DNA of 35,520 nucleotides from Aquificaceae bacterium (lineage in GTDB: Bacteria > Aquificota > Aquificia > Aquificales > Aquificaceae): NCBI GenBank assembly GCA_037722135.1, contig JBBKAW010000034.1, positions 19,036 through 54,555 on the forward strand. The letters are read 5' to 3'. The stretch's first letter is position 1. Every line of letters starts with the position of its first letter. Under the pieces are notes generated by a model. The model did not search any database. It had not been told where the DNA came from and saw only the letters and a list, made by a program, of their open reading frames with translations. Positions 1-9,287 of this stretch are shown in pieces. The translations under genes were made by a program, and so were the position numbers.

Positions 1-884
1 TCCACCTTATACCCCCTCATAAACTCCTCTCCACTCATAACCTTTCCCTTTGGAGATACAAGCTCAAGCACCTCAACCGCATCCTTTCCACAGGCAACTA
101 AGAGTTTTTTCCTATCAAGAACCTCTCCCGGGTTTCCTTGAGCTTCCACGGTTTTAACCCTAAGGACTTTAATCCTTTCTCCTTTTTCTGTCAAGGTATA
201 GCAGTCTGGGTATAAGCCTCTTATTCTGTCTCTTACGCTTTCTGCATCCGCTTTCCAGCATATTCTTAGCTCTTCCTTTTGCACTGGTGGTGCATAAAAT
301 GCCTTGCTGTGGTCTTGTGGTATGGGTTTTATATTACCCTTAGACCATTCCTTTAAGGTCCTTACCAAAAGGCTTGCTCCCTTCTGAGAGAGCCTTTCTG
401 AAAGGGTCTTTAGGTTATCCTCTAAGTGGATGGGCTCTTCTTCCTGAGAGAGGATGTCTCCTGTGTCCATTCCCTCATCCATAAGCATGACTGTGTTTCC
501 TGTTATCTTTTCTCCTGCCATGATGGCTCTTTGAATGGGTGCAGAGCCTCTATAGGCTGGAAGTAGGCTTGCATGCAGGTTTATACAGCCATAGGTTGGG
601 TAGTTTATGACTTCTGGTGGGAGTATTTTGCCATAAGCGACCACCACTATACAGTCTGGCTTTAGCCTTTCCACTATGGGCATTATTTGACTTTTCTTCT
701 CTGGCTGAAAAACCTCTATGCCAAGCTCTTTGGCAAGCACTTTTGTAGGTGGTGGCGTGAGCTTTTGACCTCTGCCTGCAGGTTTGTCTGGTTGGCAAAC
801 CACTCCCAAAAGTTCAAACTCTTGGTGCAGAGCTTTTAAGGATGGCAAGGCAAACTCGGGAGTGCCAAAGAAAAGTATTTTCAT
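1..884 (-). CDS. fmt: Methionyl-tRNA formyltransferase, C-terminus cut by window edge
   Basis: Transfers a formyl group from 10-formyl-tetrahydrofolate to initiator Met-tRNA in the cytoplasm. The reading frame from ATG 884 gives [15 protein letters not shown], the family's N-terminal Rossmann start, followed by the formyltransferase core [18 protein letters not shown] (the Asn-x-His active-site segment) and GMDTGDIL with the catalytic Asp. About 294 residues are visible and the frame is still open at base 1; the family is usually about 305-315 aa, so only a short C-terminal piece is missing. The ATG overlaps the ribD stop by 4 nt (ATGA), so it is the distal gene of the minus-strand operon from 2663. 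Identity is secure; the 3' end is not in the window. Confidence 0.95.
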
Positions 885-1957
885 GACCTTATATATTCTA
901 AAGCCACGTCATCGCCAAAGGTTTTTATATCCCTAAGTTTTAGCCTTGGTGCATCCCTCAAAAGCTCCACCCCTATATCTCCTATCCTTTTACCCTCTCC
1001 AATGAGAATGGGACCCAAGAAAACCCAAAGGCGGTCAAAAAGACCTTCTTTTATGAAAGAGGTCAAGGTAATAGCACCACCTTCTACAAGAAGATGCATC
1101 ACCTCTAAAAAGTAAAGCTCTCTCAAAACCTCCCTCAGGTCCAAGCTTTTATCTTTGGCTGGTGCAAGGATAACTTTGACCCCCTTGTCTTCAAGTCTTT
1201 TGACCTTTTCCTTGTTCTCGCTTGTGGTAAATACAAGAGTTTGAGCGGAGTGGTCTTCCACAAGGTGGCACTCCTCTGGAATTTTCAGCTGTGGGTCAAG
1301 CACTATCCTTATGGGCTGTCTTTCCCACTCAAAGGCTCTTATGGTAAGTCTTGGATTGTCCCTCAAGAGGGTGTTTATACCCACAAGCACTGCGGTTGCC
1401 TCTGCCCTAAGGCGGTGTGCAAAGTTTCTTGCCTGCTGTGAGGTTATCCATTGGCTTTCTCCAGTCTTTAGTGCCAAAGACCCATCTATGCTCTGAGCCC
1501 ACTTCAAGGTTATGTAAGGTCTTTTCTGGGTGATATAAACAAAGAAGTCCTCGTTGAGCCTTTTGGCTTCCTCTTCAAGAAGTCCCACCTCCACCTCTAT
1601 GCCTGCTTTCCTTAACCTTTCCACACCCTTTCCAGATACAAGCGGGTTTGGGTCAAGGGTGGCAATCACCACCCTTTTTAACCCTGCCCTTATAATGGCG
1701 TCCGTGCAAGGTGGAGTCCTACCATAATGGGTGCAAGGTTCAAGGGTCACATAGAGGGTTGCCCCCTTTGCCTTCTCCCCTGCCCTTTCAAGAGCCACCA
1801 CCTCCGCATGAGGCATACCAGCCCTTTCATGATAACCCTCTCCCACCACCTGTCCATCTTTTACTATTACACAGCCCACAGTGGGGTTAGGATGCGTAAG
1901 ACCCTTACGCAAATATGCAAGCTCTAAAGCCCTTTTCATAAACCTAAGGTCTTCCAT
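881..1957 (-). CDS. ribD: Bifunctional riboflavin biosynthesis deaminase/reductase RibD
   Basis: Catalyses the second and third steps of riboflavin synthesis from GTP: deamination of diaminohydroxyphosphoribosylaminopyrimidine, then NADPH-dependent reduction of the ribosyl side chain. The N-terminal deaminase (about residues 1-145) has the zinc ligands His50 and Glu52 (HAE) and Cys75 and Cys84 ([11 protein letters not shown]), at the same positions as in the E. coli enzyme. The C-terminal reductase (about 148-355) includes SIDGSLAL and LLVEGGAIT. The length of 358 aa is normal. The start ATG shares its A with the stop codon of the zinc-ribbon gene upstream (TGATG), implying translational coupling. 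No other rib gene is in the window. Confidence 0.96.
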
Positions 1958-2229
1958 CAGTCAAATATATCAAATATCTCGCCAAAGATGGACTTTTTCT
2001 TCTTTTTATGCTTGTATTCTTCGTATCTTCTATAGATTTCAGGGTGCTCTCTTGTTATTCCCCTTAGCTCCTCATCAAGGGCAGTTTCCGCTCTTTGTAT
2101 GGCTTGAATTATCTTGGAGAGCTCGCCTTTGTCAAGCCATATGCCTCCACAAACAGGGCAAACATCCACCAAAACACCATACTTGTTGACTTCCAAAAGT
2201 TCCACATCAACACATCTTGGGCACTTCAT
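1957..2229 (-). CDS. Small TFIIB-type zinc-ribbon protein
   Basis: A 90-aa protein whose N-terminus carries two CxxC-type pairs (Cys3/Cys6 and Cys24/Cys27 in VCPVCGGIWLDKGEL), the pattern of the zf-TFIIB zinc-ribbon family found in many short bacterial proteins. The CGGIWLDKGEL segment is typical of that family. The C-terminal half is charged (KHKKKKKS) and probably helical. No enzymatic function is known for the family; a zinc-binding or nucleic-acid/protein interaction role is inference. It lies between the LptE-like gene (4-nt overlap) and ribD (1-nt overlap), so it is translated as part of that operon. Confidence 0.8.
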   Translation of the reverse strand: MKCPRCVDVELLEVNKYGVLVDVCPVCGGIWLDKGELSKIIQAIQRAETALDEELRGITREHPEIYRRYEEYKHKKKKKSIFGEIFDIFD

Positions 2230-2663
2230 CTTTTCTCTTCAAGCCCTTTTATAAACTCAAGCATGTCTATGTAGATTATACCAAAGGCATCCTGAATAGC
2301 TCCTCTTCTTGGAAGGTCTCCCACACTTCCTGTAGGTTGCGAGTATGGAACAGAGGTTGAAAAAACCTTTTTTACCTCACCCACAGTTAAACCAACCTTT
2401 AGCTCTAAGTTGTAGGCACTAACCCTTTGTTGAGGAGTAAAGGCTATGGGTGTTTCCTTTAATAATTCTATATATGGCTTTATTTCCTGAGCTCCTTCGC
2501 CACACCTAAGCCTGTTTCCCGACTCTAACACCGCCCTTTCAAGACTCTTTCTGAAAGCGTAGCTTAGGTAAACCTCCGCATAGGAGTTTTCCACCTCTTT
2601 TATGCAAAAGTCCTTTGCAAGGGAAAGGGAGAGGCTAAAAAACAAAGCTAAGAATAATTTCAT
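2226..2663 (-). CDS. Exported protein, possibly LptE-like outer-membrane assembly factor
   Basis: A 145-aa protein with a clear signal peptide (MKLFLALFFSLSLSLAKD), so it is periplasmic or envelope-located. The mature part has the layout of the LptE family (partner of the LPS translocon LptD): an early helix followed by ELLKETPIAF, a beta-rich core YNLELKVGLTV, and a late RRGAIQDAFGIIYIDML helix. The match is judged by eye and is weak, and no clear lipobox Cys follows the signal, unlike classical LptE. The safe call is an exported hypothetical protein. It is the first gene of a minus-strand unit and begins without a Shine-Dalgarno sequence, 17 bp from the divergent mnhE start. Confidence 0.6.
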   Translation of the reverse strand: MKLFLALFFSLSLSLAKDFCIKEVENSYAEVYLSYAFRKSLERAVLESGNRLRCGEGAQEIKPYIELLKETPIAFTPQQRVSAYNLELKVGLTVGEVKKVFSTSVPYSQPTGSVGDLPRRGAIQDAFGIIYIDMLEFIKGLEEKR

Positions 2664-2680
2664 AGCTTATAATATAACCC
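2664..2680. promoter_or_regulatory. Symmetric divergent promoter serving two leaderless starts
   Basis: The whole gap between the two divergent ATGs is 17 bp. It contains TTATAATATAA at 2667-2677, a palindrome around base 2672. On the plus strand TATAAT (2668-2673) ends 7 nt before the mnhE ATG (2681). On the minus strand TATATT (2676-2671) ends 7 nt before the ATG at 2663. No ribosome binding site exists on either side. The two predicted start sites would be the A residues of the two ATGs, 18 bp apart. No good -35 box was seen on either strand. Confidence 0.65.
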
Positions 2681-3127
2681 ATGCTCTTTCTTGCGGTATT
2701 GTATTCTCTTATCTGGATAGCTATAGCGGGCTATGACCTAAAGTCTGTGTTTTTTGGAGTTTTGGCAGTAGGCTCTGCCCTTTTTGTGCATATAACCCTT
2801 AGGCTATACCCTCCTCGTATAAATCCTATTGCTCTTTTTGAGTTTCTTGGAGTGTTTCTTTGGCAAGCCTTTCTGGGTGGGATAGATGTAGCAAGACGTA
2901 TAATCAGTCCACAGCTCAAGGTGAACCCCGGCTTTGTAGTGTATAACTTCCAAAGCGAAAAGCTCTGGGTCAAAATACTCTTAGCCTTGACCATAAACCT
3001 TACTCCTGGCACTCTTAGTGTGGTGATAGAGGATAAGCAGGTTTTGGTCCATACTCTTGATGTGGAAAGCTACAGCGAGGAATCTGTAAGGTCGCTTGAA
3101 AGACTTTTGGATAGGGTCTTCTCATGA
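2681..3127 (+). CDS. mnhE: Mrp-type antiporter subunit E
   Basis: Subunit of a multi-component cation/proton antiporter of the inner membrane (MnhE/MrpE, equivalent to MbhA of the Pyrococcus membrane-bound hydrogenase). The 148-aa protein has hydrophobic segments near residues 1-45 and 55-70 and the family core FLWQAFLGGIDVARRI followed by LTINLTPGTLSV, which is characteristic of MnhE. The C-terminal domain is soluble. The gene opens a seven-gene operon; its stop overlaps the next start by 4 nt. It has no Shine-Dalgarno sequence and probably starts as a leaderless message from the box at 2668-2673. Confidence 0.92.
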   Translation: MLFLAVLYSLIWIAIAGYDLKSVFFGVLAVGSALFVHITLRLYPPRINPIALFEFLGVFLWQAFLGGIDVARRIISPQLKVNPGFVVYNFQSEKLWVKILLALTINLTPGTLSVVIEDKQVLVHTLDVESYSEESVRSLERLLDRVFS

Positions 3128-3375
3128 AGGAGTTTATACTCTTTTTGCTCGGACTTAACTTAGCCCTTGGCTTTGTGCGTATCTTTAGAGGACCAAGTGT
3201 GGTAGATAGCATGCTGGCTTCCTTGCTCCTTGGCACTGGAGGGACTTCTCTCATACTTGTCCTGTATAAGTTTACAGGTCAGGCTTTTCTTTTAAACCTT
3301 GCCCTTGGTTTTGCCCTCCTTGCGGGAGTTGTGGGTGTAGCCTTCGCTATAATAATGTTAAGAGATGCTGATTGA
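3124..3375 (+). CDS. mnhF: Mrp-type antiporter subunit F
   Basis: A small integral-membrane subunit (83 aa, three predicted TM helices) of the same antiporter complex. FVRIFRGPSVVDSMLA is the conserved N-terminal motif of MnhF/MrpF, where a loop after TM1 contains the RGP and D residues. Start ATG 3124 overlaps the mnhE stop (ATGA), and its own end overlaps mnhG by 11 nt, so translation is coupled on both sides. Length and topology are normal for the family. Confidence 0.92.
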   Translation: MKEFILFLLGLNLALGFVRIFRGPSVVDSMLASLLLGTGGTSLILVLYKFTGQAFLLNLALGFALLAGVVGVAFAIIMLRDAD

Positions 3376-3646
3376 AATACTCTCCACAAGCCTCATATTG
3401 ATAGGTAGTCTTTTTTTGCTTATAGGTAGTGTAGGACTTATAAGGCTTAGGGACTCCTACAGCAGGCTTCATGCTCTAACAAAGGCGGATATGCTCGGTT
3501 TTGGCTTTGTGGTTTTGGGCGTTATGTTCTCCGTAAGTAGCTTGGGAGAGGCTTTAAAGTTAGTTATAATATGGGTATTTGTGGTAGTTTACAGCTCCAT
3601 AGTGGGATACGCTATAGCCAACAGCAAGAGGAAAAGGGATGCTTGA
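3365..3646 (+). CDS. mnhG: Mrp-type antiporter subunit G
   Basis: A 93-aa, three-TM subunit MnhG/MrpG. The family pattern GSVGLIRLRDSYSRLHA followed by KADMLGFGFVVLG is plainly visible around residues 22-52. It overlaps mnhF by 11 nt and the next gene by 8 nt. MnhG proteins are usually 90-130 aa, so this is complete. Its role is structural within the membrane arm. Confidence 0.92.
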   Translation: MLIEILSTSLILIGSLFLLIGSVGLIRLRDSYSRLHALTKADMLGFGFVVLGVMFSVSSLGEALKLVIIWVFVVVYSSIVGYAIANSKRKRDA

Positions 3647-4505
3647 CATAATAATAGGACTTTTAATGCTCCTGTCCGCTTTTGCATCGCTACACAGCAA
3701 GGACCTTTTAAAAAGCGGAGTTTTCTTTGTGGTTTTTGGTTTTATGAGTGGTCTTTTGTGGATTAGGCTTTCCGCACCAGACATAGCCATGGTGGAGATA
3801 ATACTGGGTTCCGCCATAACAAGTATTCTCATATTTAAGCTGTCAAGGGGTGTGAGGGATATTGGCATAAAACCTAAATTATGGAGAAGGCTTTGGGCTG
3901 GTGCAGGCTCTTTGGTGCTGTTTGTATTTCTTACCTTTTACCTGTTTACAGTAAGAGAGGAAGAGAGGGTAGGTGGTCTTGTTTTTGAAAAACTTAGTCT
4001 CAGCGGTGTGGAAAGCCCTGTAACTGCGGTTCTTCTTAACTTTAGAGGATACGACACGCTCTTAGAAGTTGGTGTTATAACCCTTGCGGTAATTGGCATA
4101 TTAGCCCTTGAGCCAAAGAGAAAAATCTATGAGTGGAACGACATAGTGGTGTGGCGTTTTTCTAAAATATTCCTACCTATAATAGCTCTCTTTTCCCTAT
4201 ACATAACCTATCTTGGAGCTTTCTCTGTGGGTGGTGCCTTTCAGGGTGGCTCTCTCTTGGCAGGTGGTCTTGCCTTTTTGAGCCTCTCTGGACAAAAACT
4301 GCCGATAAGAGAGAACCCTACCCTTTTCCTCGCTGTGCTTAGCCTTGCAGTCTTTGTAGCCTTTGCCTTTGTATACGCCCTTGTAGGACATGGCTTTCTT
4401 ACCTACCCCCTTGAGCTTTCAACCTTGTCTATAATGCTTATAGAGATTTCCATATGTATTTCTACAGGAATGCTACTATACATAGCCATAAGGGGTAGAC
4501 TATGA
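3639..4505 (+). CDS. Fused MbhD-MbhE-MnhB antiporter subunit
   Basis: A 288-aa membrane protein made of three normally separable parts. Residues about 1-75 match MbhD/DUF4040 (the C-terminal part of MrpA) with SAPDIAMVEIILGS. Residues about 80-160 match MbhE, with the hallmark VTAVLLNFRGYDTLLEV. Residues about 170-288 match MnhB/MbhF, with GAFSVGGAFQGGSLLAGGLAF. In the Pyrococcus Mbh operon these are three genes (mbhD, mbhE, mbhF); in classical Mrp the first two are the tail of MrpA and the third is MrpB. The frame is continuous with no sign of a sequence error. The gene overlaps its neighbours by 8 and 4 nt. Part assignments are by motif reading. Confidence 0.88.
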   Translation: MLDIIIGLLMLLSAFASLHSKDLLKSGVFFVVFGFMSGLLWIRLSAPDIAMVEIILGSAITSILIFKLSRGVRDIGIKPKLWRRLWAGAGSLVLFVFLTFYLFTVREEERVGGLVFEKLSLSGVESPVTAVLLNFRGYDTLLEVGVITLAVIGILALEPKRKIYEWNDIVVWRFSKIFLPIIALFSLYITYLGAFSVGGAFQGGSLLAGGLAFLSLSGQKLPIRENPTLFLAVLSLAVFVAFAFVYALVGHGFLTYPLELSTLSIMLIEISICISTGMLLYIAIRGRL

Positions 4506-4780
4506 AGGAACTGTATTATTTGCTCTCCTTTCTTCTCATAAGCATGAGCACCTACTACTTTATCACCGCCATAAACCTTGTTAAAAGGCTTATCGCAGTC
4601 AACATCTTAGGCTCTGGCGTTTTTCTCTTTTTTGTGGCAACCGCAAGAAATACTCCCTCTGAAAACCCAGACCCCGTGCCACATGCTCTTGTGTTAACGG
4701 GTATAGTGGTGGCGGTAAGTGCCACAGCCCTTGCGGTCTCCTTACTTTTGCACCTTAGTAAACAAAGAGAGGAAGAGTGA
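4502..4780 (+). CDS. mnhC: Mrp-type antiporter subunit C (NuoK-like)
   Basis: A 92-aa, three-TM protein homologous to MnhC/MrpC and to NuoK of complex I. The segment AVNILGSGVFLFFVATA corresponds to the conserved second helix, and DPVPHALVLTGIVVAVSATALAVSL is the family's typical third-helix entry (shown by its PHALVLTGIVV core). It is slightly short compared with many MnhC proteins of about 110 aa but contains all three helices. The start overlaps the upstream stop by 4 nt, and the stop shares bases with the next start codon. Confidence 0.92.
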   Translation: MKELYYLLSFLLISMSTYYFITAINLVKRLIAVNILGSGVFLFFVATARNTPSENPDPVPHALVLTGIVVAVSATALAVSLLLHLSKQREEE

Positions 4781-6237
4781 TGCTTGGCTTTGACCTTGGC
4801 TATCTTGTGGCAGTGCCTCTTATAGGTGCTATCCTCTCTCTCCTATCTCCTATAAGGCTTCTTGTTGCGGTTGTTTTCAGTCTACTTTCACTAACCCTTT
4901 CCTTGTATGCCTTTTACATAACCTTAAGCATGCATGAACCCATCTATCAATGGGTAGGAGGCTGGACTGCACCACTCGGAATTGGCTTTAAGTTAGATGG
5001 TGTTTCGGGCTTTTTCCTTATGATGAGCGGGGTGGTGAGCTTTGCGGTGGGAGTATACTCTCTGGGTTTTTTCAAAGAAGGCTACAAGAGACAAGGAAGG
5101 TTTTTCTGGTTTTTCTTCTTTTTCCTCTGGGCGGGGCTTAATGCCTTTTTCCTCTCTGAGGACCTCTTTAACCTGTATGTTGCCCTTGAGGTGCTTTCCC
5201 TTACTGCGGTGGTGCTTGTTGCCCTTCCAGGCTACAGAAAAGCCATAAAGGCTTCTGTGAACTATCTGTTTTTGTCTTTGTTTGCTTCCATGTTCTACCT
5301 CTTTGGCGTTGCCATGCTATACACTAATTATGGAACTCTTAGCATGTCCCTACTTGCCCAGAGACTTGCGGGAACTGAAGAATTTGTCTTTGCACTTCTC
5401 CCCCTTGTCTTGGCTCTTTCCATAAAGTCCGCCCTTTTCCCCTTTCACTTTTGGCTTCCACCAGCCCACTCAAGCACGGTGGCACCCGCCAGTGCTCTAC
5501 TTTCTGGTCTTGTGGTAAAACCACCTGCATATTTGATACTTAGACTTTGGCTTGAGGTCTTTCCGGACAACCCAAGCCTTGAATATCTAAGCTGGGTTTT
5601 GGGTGGGTTTGGTGCTCTTGCAGTGCTTTTGGGCTCCTATTACGCCATAAGGCAGAGAACCATAAAGATGCTCTTGGCATACTCTACCGTTGCACAGATG
5701 GGATACCTTTTTTTGATGGTCCCAGTATATTACAAAGCTCAAAGTTTAGAGGTAAAAAGTTTGGTTCTTGAAGGCTTTGCCCTTCAGGCTTTTTCTCACG
5801 CCTTGGCAAAAGCCAGCATGTTCCTATCCTCTGGAAATGCCATATACGTGGCAAAAAGAGATGAAATTTCCTACATGCCAGGCTTTGCCCACAGTCATCC
5901 TTTTACCTTCTTTGCCCTCTTCTTCTCGGGTGCCACCCTTATAGGTCTACCACTAAGCGGTGGCTTTGTTGCCAAGTTTCTACTTTTGAAGGCTTCTATA
6001 GAGACCGGTCTTCTCTTCCAGGCAATAGTTTTCCTTCTTGGTAGCCTGCTTGCCAGCCTATATGTCTACCCTATCTGGAAAGAGAGCTTCTATCAAGACC
6101 CCAAAAAGGTTTATGACAAACCCATACCCCGTTTTATGGAGCTTTCTACCTTCTTACTTGGCTTTTTAGCCTTCTCCTTAGGTTTGGTTTCTGGTTTTAT
6201 ATTGCAAGGAATAACCAGAGGTGTGGCACATGGATAG
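4780..6237 (+). CDS. mnhD: Mrp-type antiporter subunit D (NuoM/NuoN-like proton channel)
   Basis: A large multi-spanning ion-translocating subunit of 485 aa. Conserved charged residues of the proton-conducting family are present: the TM5 glutamate in NLYVALEVLSL and the TM7 lysine in LSIKSALFPFHFWLPPAHS, followed by the SGLVVKPPAYLILR helix. The ATG at 4780 shares its A with the mnhC stop (TGATG); a GTG one codon upstream (4777) is an alternative. The protein is the counterpart of MbhH/MrpD. It ends 8 nt inside the next gene. Confidence 0.92.
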   Translation: MLGFDLGYLVAVPLIGAILSLLSPIRLLVAVVFSLLSLTLSLYAFYITLSMHEPIYQWVGGWTAPLGIGFKLDGVSGFFLMMSGVVSFAVGVYSLGFFKEGYKRQGRFFWFFFFFLWAGLNAFFLSEDLFNLYVALEVLSLTAVVLVALPGYRKAIKASVNYLFLSLFASMFYLFGVAMLYTNYGTLSMSLLAQRLAGTEEFVFALLPLVLALSIKSALFPFHFWLPPAHSSTVAPASALLSGLVVKPPAYLILRLWLEVFPDNPSLEYLSWVLGGFGALAVLLGSYYAIRQRTIKMLLAYSTVAQMGYLFLMVPVYYKAQSLEVKSLVLEGFALQAFSHALAKASMFLSSGNAIYVAKRDEISYMPGFAHSHPFTFFALFFSGATLIGLPLSGGFVAKFLLLKASIETGLLFQAIVFLLGSLLASLYVYPIWKESFYQDPKKVYDKPIPRFMELSTFLLGFLAFSLGLVSGFILQGITRGVAHG

Positions 6238-7711
6238 CTTTGTGATTCTTAGCTTGCTCTTTAGCTCCTTTGTTGCGAGCGTGATAATAGCCTTCCTAAG
6301 AGAAGAATGGTATCTACTTAGAACCTTTGTAAATGTTAGTGCTGCGGTATACAAACTTTTTGTTATAGCATACCTTCTTTGGTCAGTCTATAAGGGCAAG
6401 GTCTTTGAAATAAGCTATCCCATGGTTTCCTTCGTAAACTTTCATCTTAAAATAGACCCCCTTGGACTTCTGTTTGTAAGTCTTTCCTCCTTTTTATGGC
6501 TTTTGACAACCCTGTATGCGGTTGGATACCTTGAAGGCTCTCCAAACCGTAGAAGATTTTTCACCTTCTTCAACCTTGCGGTAACCTCCACCATGGGAAT
6601 AGCCCTTGCAGGCAACACCTTTACCTTTTTCCTCTTTTATGAGCTTCTTACGCTAAGCACCTATCCCCTTGTGGTTCACAAAGGCTCTCAAAAGGCTCTG
6701 AGTGCAGGAGGTGTTTATCTGTTATATACCCTATTGGCAGGAAACTTGTTTTTTGTATGCCTTGTAGTCCTATACATAATGGTAGGTAGTGGAGACTTTC
6801 ATGCAGGTGGAAATCCACAGATAAAGGCTTGGGCTATGGCAAACCCCCACTTGGCAAGCTTACTCTTTTATGGTCTGTTCTTTGGAATGGCGGTAAAGGC
6901 AGCAATTTTTCCACTTCATGGTTGGCTCACAAGGGCGATGGTGGCACCAGCCCCAGTTAGTGCACTCCTGCACGCAGTAGCAGTGGTAAAGGCAGGAGCC
7001 TTTGGCGTTGCAAGGCTTGTTTATGACCTCTACGGTGCGGAGACAGTTGACGCTCTAAACCTCTGGCAACCTCTTGCTTACCTTGCAGGCTTTACCATAG
7101 TATTTGGTTCTTTTATGGCGGTATTCCAAAAGGAGCTTAAAAAAAGGCTTGCCTATTCCACAATAAGCCACCTCTCATATATACTCTTAGGTCTATTAAT
7201 TCCTGGACCCATTGCCACCATGGGTGCTCTCCTACACTTAGTAAACCATGGCGTAATGAAAATAACCCTCTTTATGTGCGTAGGAAATTACTCAGAAACT
7301 TACGGAATACATAAGGTAGAAGAGGTAAAGGGAATAGGTAAGAAGATGCCTCTTACTACCCTTGCACTTACCATTGCCTCCCTTGGTCTTATAGGGCTTC
7401 CCTTTACCGCAGGCTACCTTACAAAGGAGTATCTACAAAAGGGTGCTCAGATTGCAGGTGTGGAATGGGCTGTATATGTGCTTTATGCAAGCTCTCTATT
7501 GAGTGCTCTCTATCTACTACCTATAGTCTTCAGTGCATGGTTTGGCAGAGGAGAGTTTAAGAAAGAAAGAAACACAAACCTTGAAACAAACCCCCTTATG
7601 CTCCTGCCACCTCTTATAACAGGACTATTAACGGTGCTTATATGGCTATCCACAAAGACACCCATAAACCCCATTCTCTGGACTGAGCTAATTGTAAAGG
7701 GCTACCCCTAA
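6230..7711 (+). CDS. Second NuoL/MrpA-N-like antiporter subunit
   Basis: A 493-aa multi-spanning subunit with the same proton-transporter domain as its neighbour but nearer the NuoL/MrpA N-terminal type: FFLFYELLTLSTYP carries the TM5 Glu (near residue 138), MAVKAAIFPLHGWLTRAM the TM7 Lys, and HAVAVVKAGAFGVARL the next conserved Lys helix. ATG 6230 is preferred over GTG 6221 because GAGGTG at 6217-6222 is well placed as a ribosome binding site for it. Classical MrpA is about 750-800 aa; here its C-terminal MbhD/MbhE portion is encoded separately at 3639. It closes the operon 21 bp before eno. It may instead be a duplicated MrpD. Confidence 0.87.
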   Translation: MDSFVILSLLFSSFVASVIIAFLREEWYLLRTFVNVSAAVYKLFVIAYLLWSVYKGKVFEISYPMVSFVNFHLKIDPLGLLFVSLSSFLWLLTTLYAVGYLEGSPNRRRFFTFFNLAVTSTMGIALAGNTFTFFLFYELLTLSTYPLVVHKGSQKALSAGGVYLLYTLLAGNLFFVCLVVLYIMVGSGDFHAGGNPQIKAWAMANPHLASLLFYGLFFGMAVKAAIFPLHGWLTRAMVAPAPVSALLHAVAVVKAGAFGVARLVYDLYGAETVDALNLWQPLAYLAGFTIVFGSFMAVFQKELKKRLAYSTISHLSYILLGLLIPGPIATMGALLHLVNHGVMKITLFMCVGNYSETYGIHKVEEVKGIGKKMPLTTLALTIASLGLIGLPFTAGYLTKEYLQKGAQIAGVEWAVYVLYASSLLSALYLLPIVFSAWFGRGEFKKERNTNLETNPLMLLPPLITGLLTVLIWLSTKTPINPILWTELIVKGYP

Positions 7712-7714
7712 TAA

Positions 7715-9287
<1,573 letters not shown>

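Follow-up and report, generated by a model that had tools for sequence, protein, structure and literature searches.

The gap between mnhE and an exported-protein gene

The window, a stretch of 35,520 nucleotides (nt) from a heat-loving Aquificaceae bacterium (assembly GCA_037722135.1, contig JBBKAW010000034.1), harbors two operons that diverge from a gap of only 17 bp (2664-2680, AGCTTATAATATAACCC, read directly). Rightward lies an antiporter operon headed by mnhE, and leftward an operon headed by a gene for a putative exported protein (Table 1). A symmetric element fills most of the gap and is probably a promoter shared by both operons. As the initial annotation had described, and as direct reading of the letters confirms, this palindrome is centered on base 2672 with both ATGs 9 bp away, so that the A residues of the facing start codons (2663 on the minus strand, 2681 on the plus strand) are 18 bp apart. 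The same reading bears out the two −10-like hexamers, each 7 nt before its own ATG; they overlap by 3 bp (TATAAT 2668-2673 on the plus strand, TATATT 2676-2671 on the minus strand). No Shine-Dalgarno-like string fits in the 17-bp gap in either direction, and Rfam gave no match at the site.

A point missed by that annotation is that an in-frame TAA lies two codons before each ATG (2675-2677 on the plus strand, 2669-2667 on the minus strand), both supplied by the symmetric element itself. Neither open reading frame (ORF) can therefore begin further upstream, and the placement of the start codons is supported by these stops together with the retention of the starts in close relatives.

Table 1. 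Features of the divergent locus and its surroundings in window coordinates.
Feature	Position	Strand	Remarks
ribD, third gene of leftward operon	881..1957	-	TIGR00326
Zinc-ribbon protein, second gene of leftward operon	1957..2229	-	Zn_ribbon_TFIIB; overlaps first gene
Exported protein, first gene of leftward operon	2226..2663	-	no Pfam/NCBIfam match; in 12 of the 14 genomes of the genus
Start codon of exported protein (CAT)	2661..2663	-	predicted start site at A (2663) or 1 nt upstream; signal-peptide-like N-terminus MKLFLALFFSLSLSLA
Symmetric element TTATAATATAA	2667..2677		center of symmetry 2672
Core TATAATATA of symmetric element	2668..2676		invariant in the five genomes keeping the gene pair
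Putative −10 hexamer TATAAT, mnh operon	2668..2673	+	7 nt before mnhE ATG; TANAAT spacing enriched genome-wide
Putative −10 hexamer TATATT, exported-protein operon	2671..2676	-	7 nt before its own ATG; spacing preference
Start codon of mnhE	2681..2683	+	predicted start site at A (2681) or 1 nt upstream; MNHE Pfam match from residue 6
mnhE, first gene of rightward antiporter operon	2681..3127	+	PF01899
Remaining mnh operon: F, G, MbhD/E-MnhB fusion, C, two D-like subunits	3124..7711	+	start and stop codons overlapping
TATAAT before enolase	7721..7726	+	6 nt before enolase ATG (7733), preceded by TG (TG-C-TATAAT); second leaderless-type start in the window

Recurrence and conservation of the symmetric box

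The arrangement is not confined to this locus. The pattern CAT-N4-TANANTNTA-N4-ATG was searched in 64 Aquificaceae genomes, 14 of which belong to the genus of the window, and was found at 65 sites versus three for the reversed pattern; the genus accounts for 40 sites versus none reversed, and the 1.31-Mb genome of the window itself for four. In a sister genome, a first-order Markov model predicts about 0.11 sites per 1.5 Mb; about 1.5 sites are thereby expected for the genus and 7 for the family. The stricter CAT-N4-TAWAATWTA-N4-ATG occurs 53 times in the Aquificaceae (control 1) and twice in 72 other Aquificota genomes (control 4).

The enrichment depends on the distance between box and start codons. 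Flanks of 2, 4 and 6 nt gave 1, 65 and 25 sites in the 64 genomes and 0, 40 and 3 in the genus, respectively. A grid of 1-7 nt flanks has its maximum at 4/4 (26 among the 140 sites listed) and is nearly empty at 1-2 nt, with gaps of 16-20 bp representing 122 of these 140 sites. Since the grid peaks at 4/4 yet spreads over 16-20 bp, 17 bp is the mode, with real tolerance around it. Several genomes are closely related and the counts are not all independent; with two near copies removed, 4/4 remains the top cell, 19-bp gaps then equaling 17-bp gaps in frequency. Crude ORF calls contain so many spurious antisense ORFs that raw histograms of divergent gaps had no clean 17-bp peak, and the histograms were replaced by these pattern searches with spacing controls.

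At 41 of 50 exact sites checked (ORFs of at least 60 aa; a few loci present twice), the element lies precisely between two divergent ORFs that start at both ATGs. The genes concerned are functionally diverse: Pfam matches identify MazG, amidase/methyltransferase, SurE/ATPase, RidA-like/Crp-family and HemD/DnaG, while enolase/MnmG and a CutA-like gene were recognized by eye. The letters kept among sites are only those forming the two −10 boxes, and a search of 78 oriented sites for a conserved −35 recovered nothing beyond the periodic codon signal of the gene opposite. An exact 17-bp site in G001 (G001:C1:82912-82934) separates a LOG-like gene from one for a small membrane protein, both named by eye, and is kept in genomes G002, G004 and G005. 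Outside the phylum, one divergent pair was read in Thermus thermophilus (26-bp gap) and has no symmetric box, a single pair from which nothing general follows.

Single leaderless-type genes have the same box-to-ATG layout. The spacing from TANAAT to the ATGs of long ORFs was analyzed in samples of 100-414 kb per genome, and all eight sampled genomes, from seven genera, show a peak 6-8 nt before the ATG (observed versus expected, 58 versus 12 in G036, 51 versus 11 in G038 and 28 versus 3 in G001), suggesting that leaderless or near-leaderless starts are normal in Aquificaceae. A Shine-Dalgarno peak is present alongside, indicating that the sampled genomes use both start modes. No comparable peak follows TATAAT at TTG and GTG starts, so the spacing signal appears to be specific to ATG. 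Transcription starting at the A would be expected to leave a pyrimidine at −1, as is the case in about 83% of sites. These data are in line with Zheng et al. (2011), who independently predicted, from sequence, TA-led (leaderless) genes in Aquificae, 26.5% on average in two of five (PMC3160421). In addition, 44 single leaderless-type starts from the G036 and G038 samples display an ATG-like bump upstream of the box (A54/T50/G52 percent at −19/−18/−17), which neither a −35 nor a classic extended −10 explains.

Conservation at the locus itself, which the initial annotation had named as a check, could be followed in few genomes. Only six of the 64 harbor mnhE, all within the genus of the window, and five retain the exported-protein gene as its neighbor. 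The core TATAATATA is unchanged in all five, and the remaining gap letters vary. The gap is identical to that of the window in G036, 19 bp long in G037 (AGCTTTTATAATATACCCC), 18 bp in G042 (GTTTTATAATATAGGCTA), and 17 bp in G046 (AATCTATAATATAGGGC, read toward mnhE), provided that the outer of two candidate ATGs is the mnhE start. The 18-bp separation of the start codons, on which the initial annotation was too strict, is thus the preferred value and not a lock: it is 19 and 20 bp in two of these relatives, and any gap from 16 to 20 bp is common in the family. No mnhE was found in G038, G039 or G045; there the exported-protein gene faces enolase across about 30 bp, and separate TATAAT-like boxes lie each about 6-8 nt from their own start (both by eye).

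A broader comparison is offered by the MazG pair, followed in 13 genomes. In nine of them TATAATATA is unchanged before MazG and the partner gene is in place, although between-genome identity at the 4-fold degenerate sites of MazG is only 42%. No ORF was found facing MazG in G041. G048 retains the reverse half of the box, which is altered in G042 (TATAATATT), the facing partner not being established in either. These three loci provide a possible test of whether the second gene maintains the symmetry of the box.

A candidate bidirectional promoter and its alternatives

Taken from the letters and their comparison, the gap is probably a minimal bidirectional sigma-A promoter with both start sites on or next to the start codons. 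RNA polymerase bound in either orientation would melt the single symmetric −10 box TATAATATA; rightward initiation would produce the mRNA of the mnh operon, and leftward initiation that of the exported protein, the zinc-ribbon protein and ribD. With 7 nt between the box and each ATG, transcription would begin in both directions at the start codon or within about 1 nt of it, which would make both mRNAs leaderless or nearly so and a ribosome-binding site unneeded. A start exactly on each A and a 1-nt leader are equally possible, the latter giving a separation of 16 bp. The idea of a symmetric −10 serving two leaderless divergent mRNAs, put forward in the initial annotation, passes the conservation check proposed there, the palindrome being kept in all five genomes with this gene pair, and gains from its recurrence at many other pairs; the exact coincidence of transcription and translation starts keeps the status of a prediction.

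The statement in the initial annotation that symmetric −10 boxes with start sites about 18 bp apart are known in bacteria agrees with the work of Warman, Grainger and colleagues on E. coli, Salmonella and other prokaryotes, where a near-symmetric −10 drives divergent transcription from start sites 7-25 bp apart, most often 18, with a T at −18 that is the complement of the opposite start-site A (PMC12825309, PMC10268837). The locus shares with these promoters TANNNT-type −10 boxes on both strands in one overlapping element and ATG A residues 18 bp apart, the start sites here being predicted from sequence; if each start is the A, the facing ATG automatically provides the T at −18 wherever the gap is 17 bp. 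It differs in that the two start sites are predicted to coincide with two start codons and to leave no leaders, and in a 9-bp TANANTNTA core instead of the TANNNTA of the published scheme. In that scheme the −7T and −11A of the two strands coincide reciprocally, whereas here, if transcription starts at the A residues of the ATGs, each hexamer is placed 1 bp further out. In those promoters the two polymerase orientations are mutually exclusive (PMC12825309), with competition when activity is high. The claim that both operons are locked to the same opened bubble was consequently overstated: because polymerase would use the box in one direction at a time, the operons would share the site rather than fire together, and their coupling is expected to take the form of sharing or competition.

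Other known systems resemble single parts of the arrangement. The TA-led genes of Zheng et al., for which A. aeolicus is among four examples, carry a box resembling TATAAT about 10-12 bp ahead of the start codon, comparable to the −10-like box 7 nt before both ATGs here, likewise with no Shine-Dalgarno; they are single genes, however, and the main text of that study does not use the words divergent or bidirectional (PMC3160421). The divergent cvkR and cas12k genes of Anabaena are both translated from leaderless mRNAs, but their start codons are 82 nt apart and hence no −10 box is shared (PMC9938897). The divergent core promoters of the EcoRV restriction-modification system overlap so that polymerase is unable to bind both simultaneously, yet this is one locus under regulation and is not described as a pair of leaderless starts that share a symmetric box (PMC5333194). 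Bidirectional promoters and leaderless mRNAs are thus each known, whereas their fusion as a recurrent conserved architecture between protein-coding pairs was not found in the literature searched, which excluded the 2021 founding paper on bidirectional promoters.

Several observations weigh against a bidirectional leaderless promoter. Neither a −35 nor an extended −10 is recognizable at the gap, and each ATG has its A at the 8th nt past the hexamer, where the E. coli optimum is the 7th. The leftward spacer in G037 is 9 nt, and the leader there may be 1-2 nt. Finally, conservation of the box shows its importance for at least one direction and does not by itself establish use in both.

The strongest competing explanation, to which we give somewhat less than an even chance, is that two ordinary leaderless promoters overlap through the packing of a compact genome, an arrangement tolerated without regulatory meaning. 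Its mechanics are the same as those of a selected bidirectional promoter, and the two differ only in whether the coupling is selected. Packing accords with the TANAAT-N6-8-ATG layout of single leaderless genes, the spread of gap lengths over 16-20 bp, and the roughly 30-bp gap between the exported-protein gene and enolase, where each gene has a TATAAT-like box of its own. It accounts less well for 4/4 being the modal spacing, and for the MazG pair, which, with its neutral sites close to saturation, keeps the whole symmetric core and not one half.

Promoters inside the opposing genes, with long leaders and a palindrome that is not a promoter, are unlikely. Transcription from inside genes is common in bacteria, and the consensus −35 is absent from the gap. 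However, no ribosome-binding site is possible beside either ATG, so that long leaders would also be devoid of a signal; there is strong genome-wide enrichment of the spacing between box and ATG, and no sigma-70-type promoter was found anywhere in 2200-3200. Still less probable is a binding site for a dimeric regulator of the divergent pair. A short AT-rich palindrome separating divergent genes is often an operator, but the same core stands between many functionally unrelated housekeeping pairs, only the letters making two −10 boxes are kept, and the distance from core to ATGs is constrained. Chance in an AT-rich gap, although TATAAT-like strings are frequent at 43% guanine plus cytosine, is the least credible explanation for this gap given the excess in the genus over both the reversed pattern and the Markov expectation and the conservation over five genomes, and at family level it is already refuted.

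Flanking operons and implications for the Aquificaceae

The exported protein contains a QQRVS stretch that was also seen in the relatives read. Several antiporter names rest on matches below curated NCBIfam cut-offs; the Pfam cut-offs are passed by E and G as well as by two parts, MbhD and MnhB, of the fusion. The latter is a 288-aa ORF (3639-4505) that matches MbhD, MbhE (weakly) and MnhB in succession and is apparently a fusion of usually separate subunits. Enolase (7733-9016) directly follows the mnh operon, and its box has an extended −10 look. The mnh operon is thereby placed between the exported-protein gene and enolase, and since these two genes face each other directly in the mnhE-less G038, G039 and G045, the antiporter cluster appears to have been gained or lost here as a block.

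Whether bidirectional leaderless promoters are a standard gene-pair design of the Aquificaceae is, in our estimate, evenly balanced. In such a design, perhaps one to two dozen divergent pairs per genome would rest on a shared symmetric −10 box, the start-site rule of the polymerase would set the distance between the two start codons and so the shortest possible divergent intergenic region, and the pairs would be coupled via polymerase exclusion. A practical caution for gene finders is that many starts in this family are marked by a box and not by a Shine-Dalgarno sequence. The sites would offer a natural set of minimal divergent promoters devoid of −35 elements, leaders and ribosome-binding sites. 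With them it becomes testable whether selection keeps bidirectional promoters for the production of two mRNAs or whether they are a side effect of −10 symmetry, and whether genes with no functional relation, for example HemD and DnaG, are coupled by steric competition. For the Aquificaceae, such an architecture would mean that the geometry of transcription fixes the spacing of genes.
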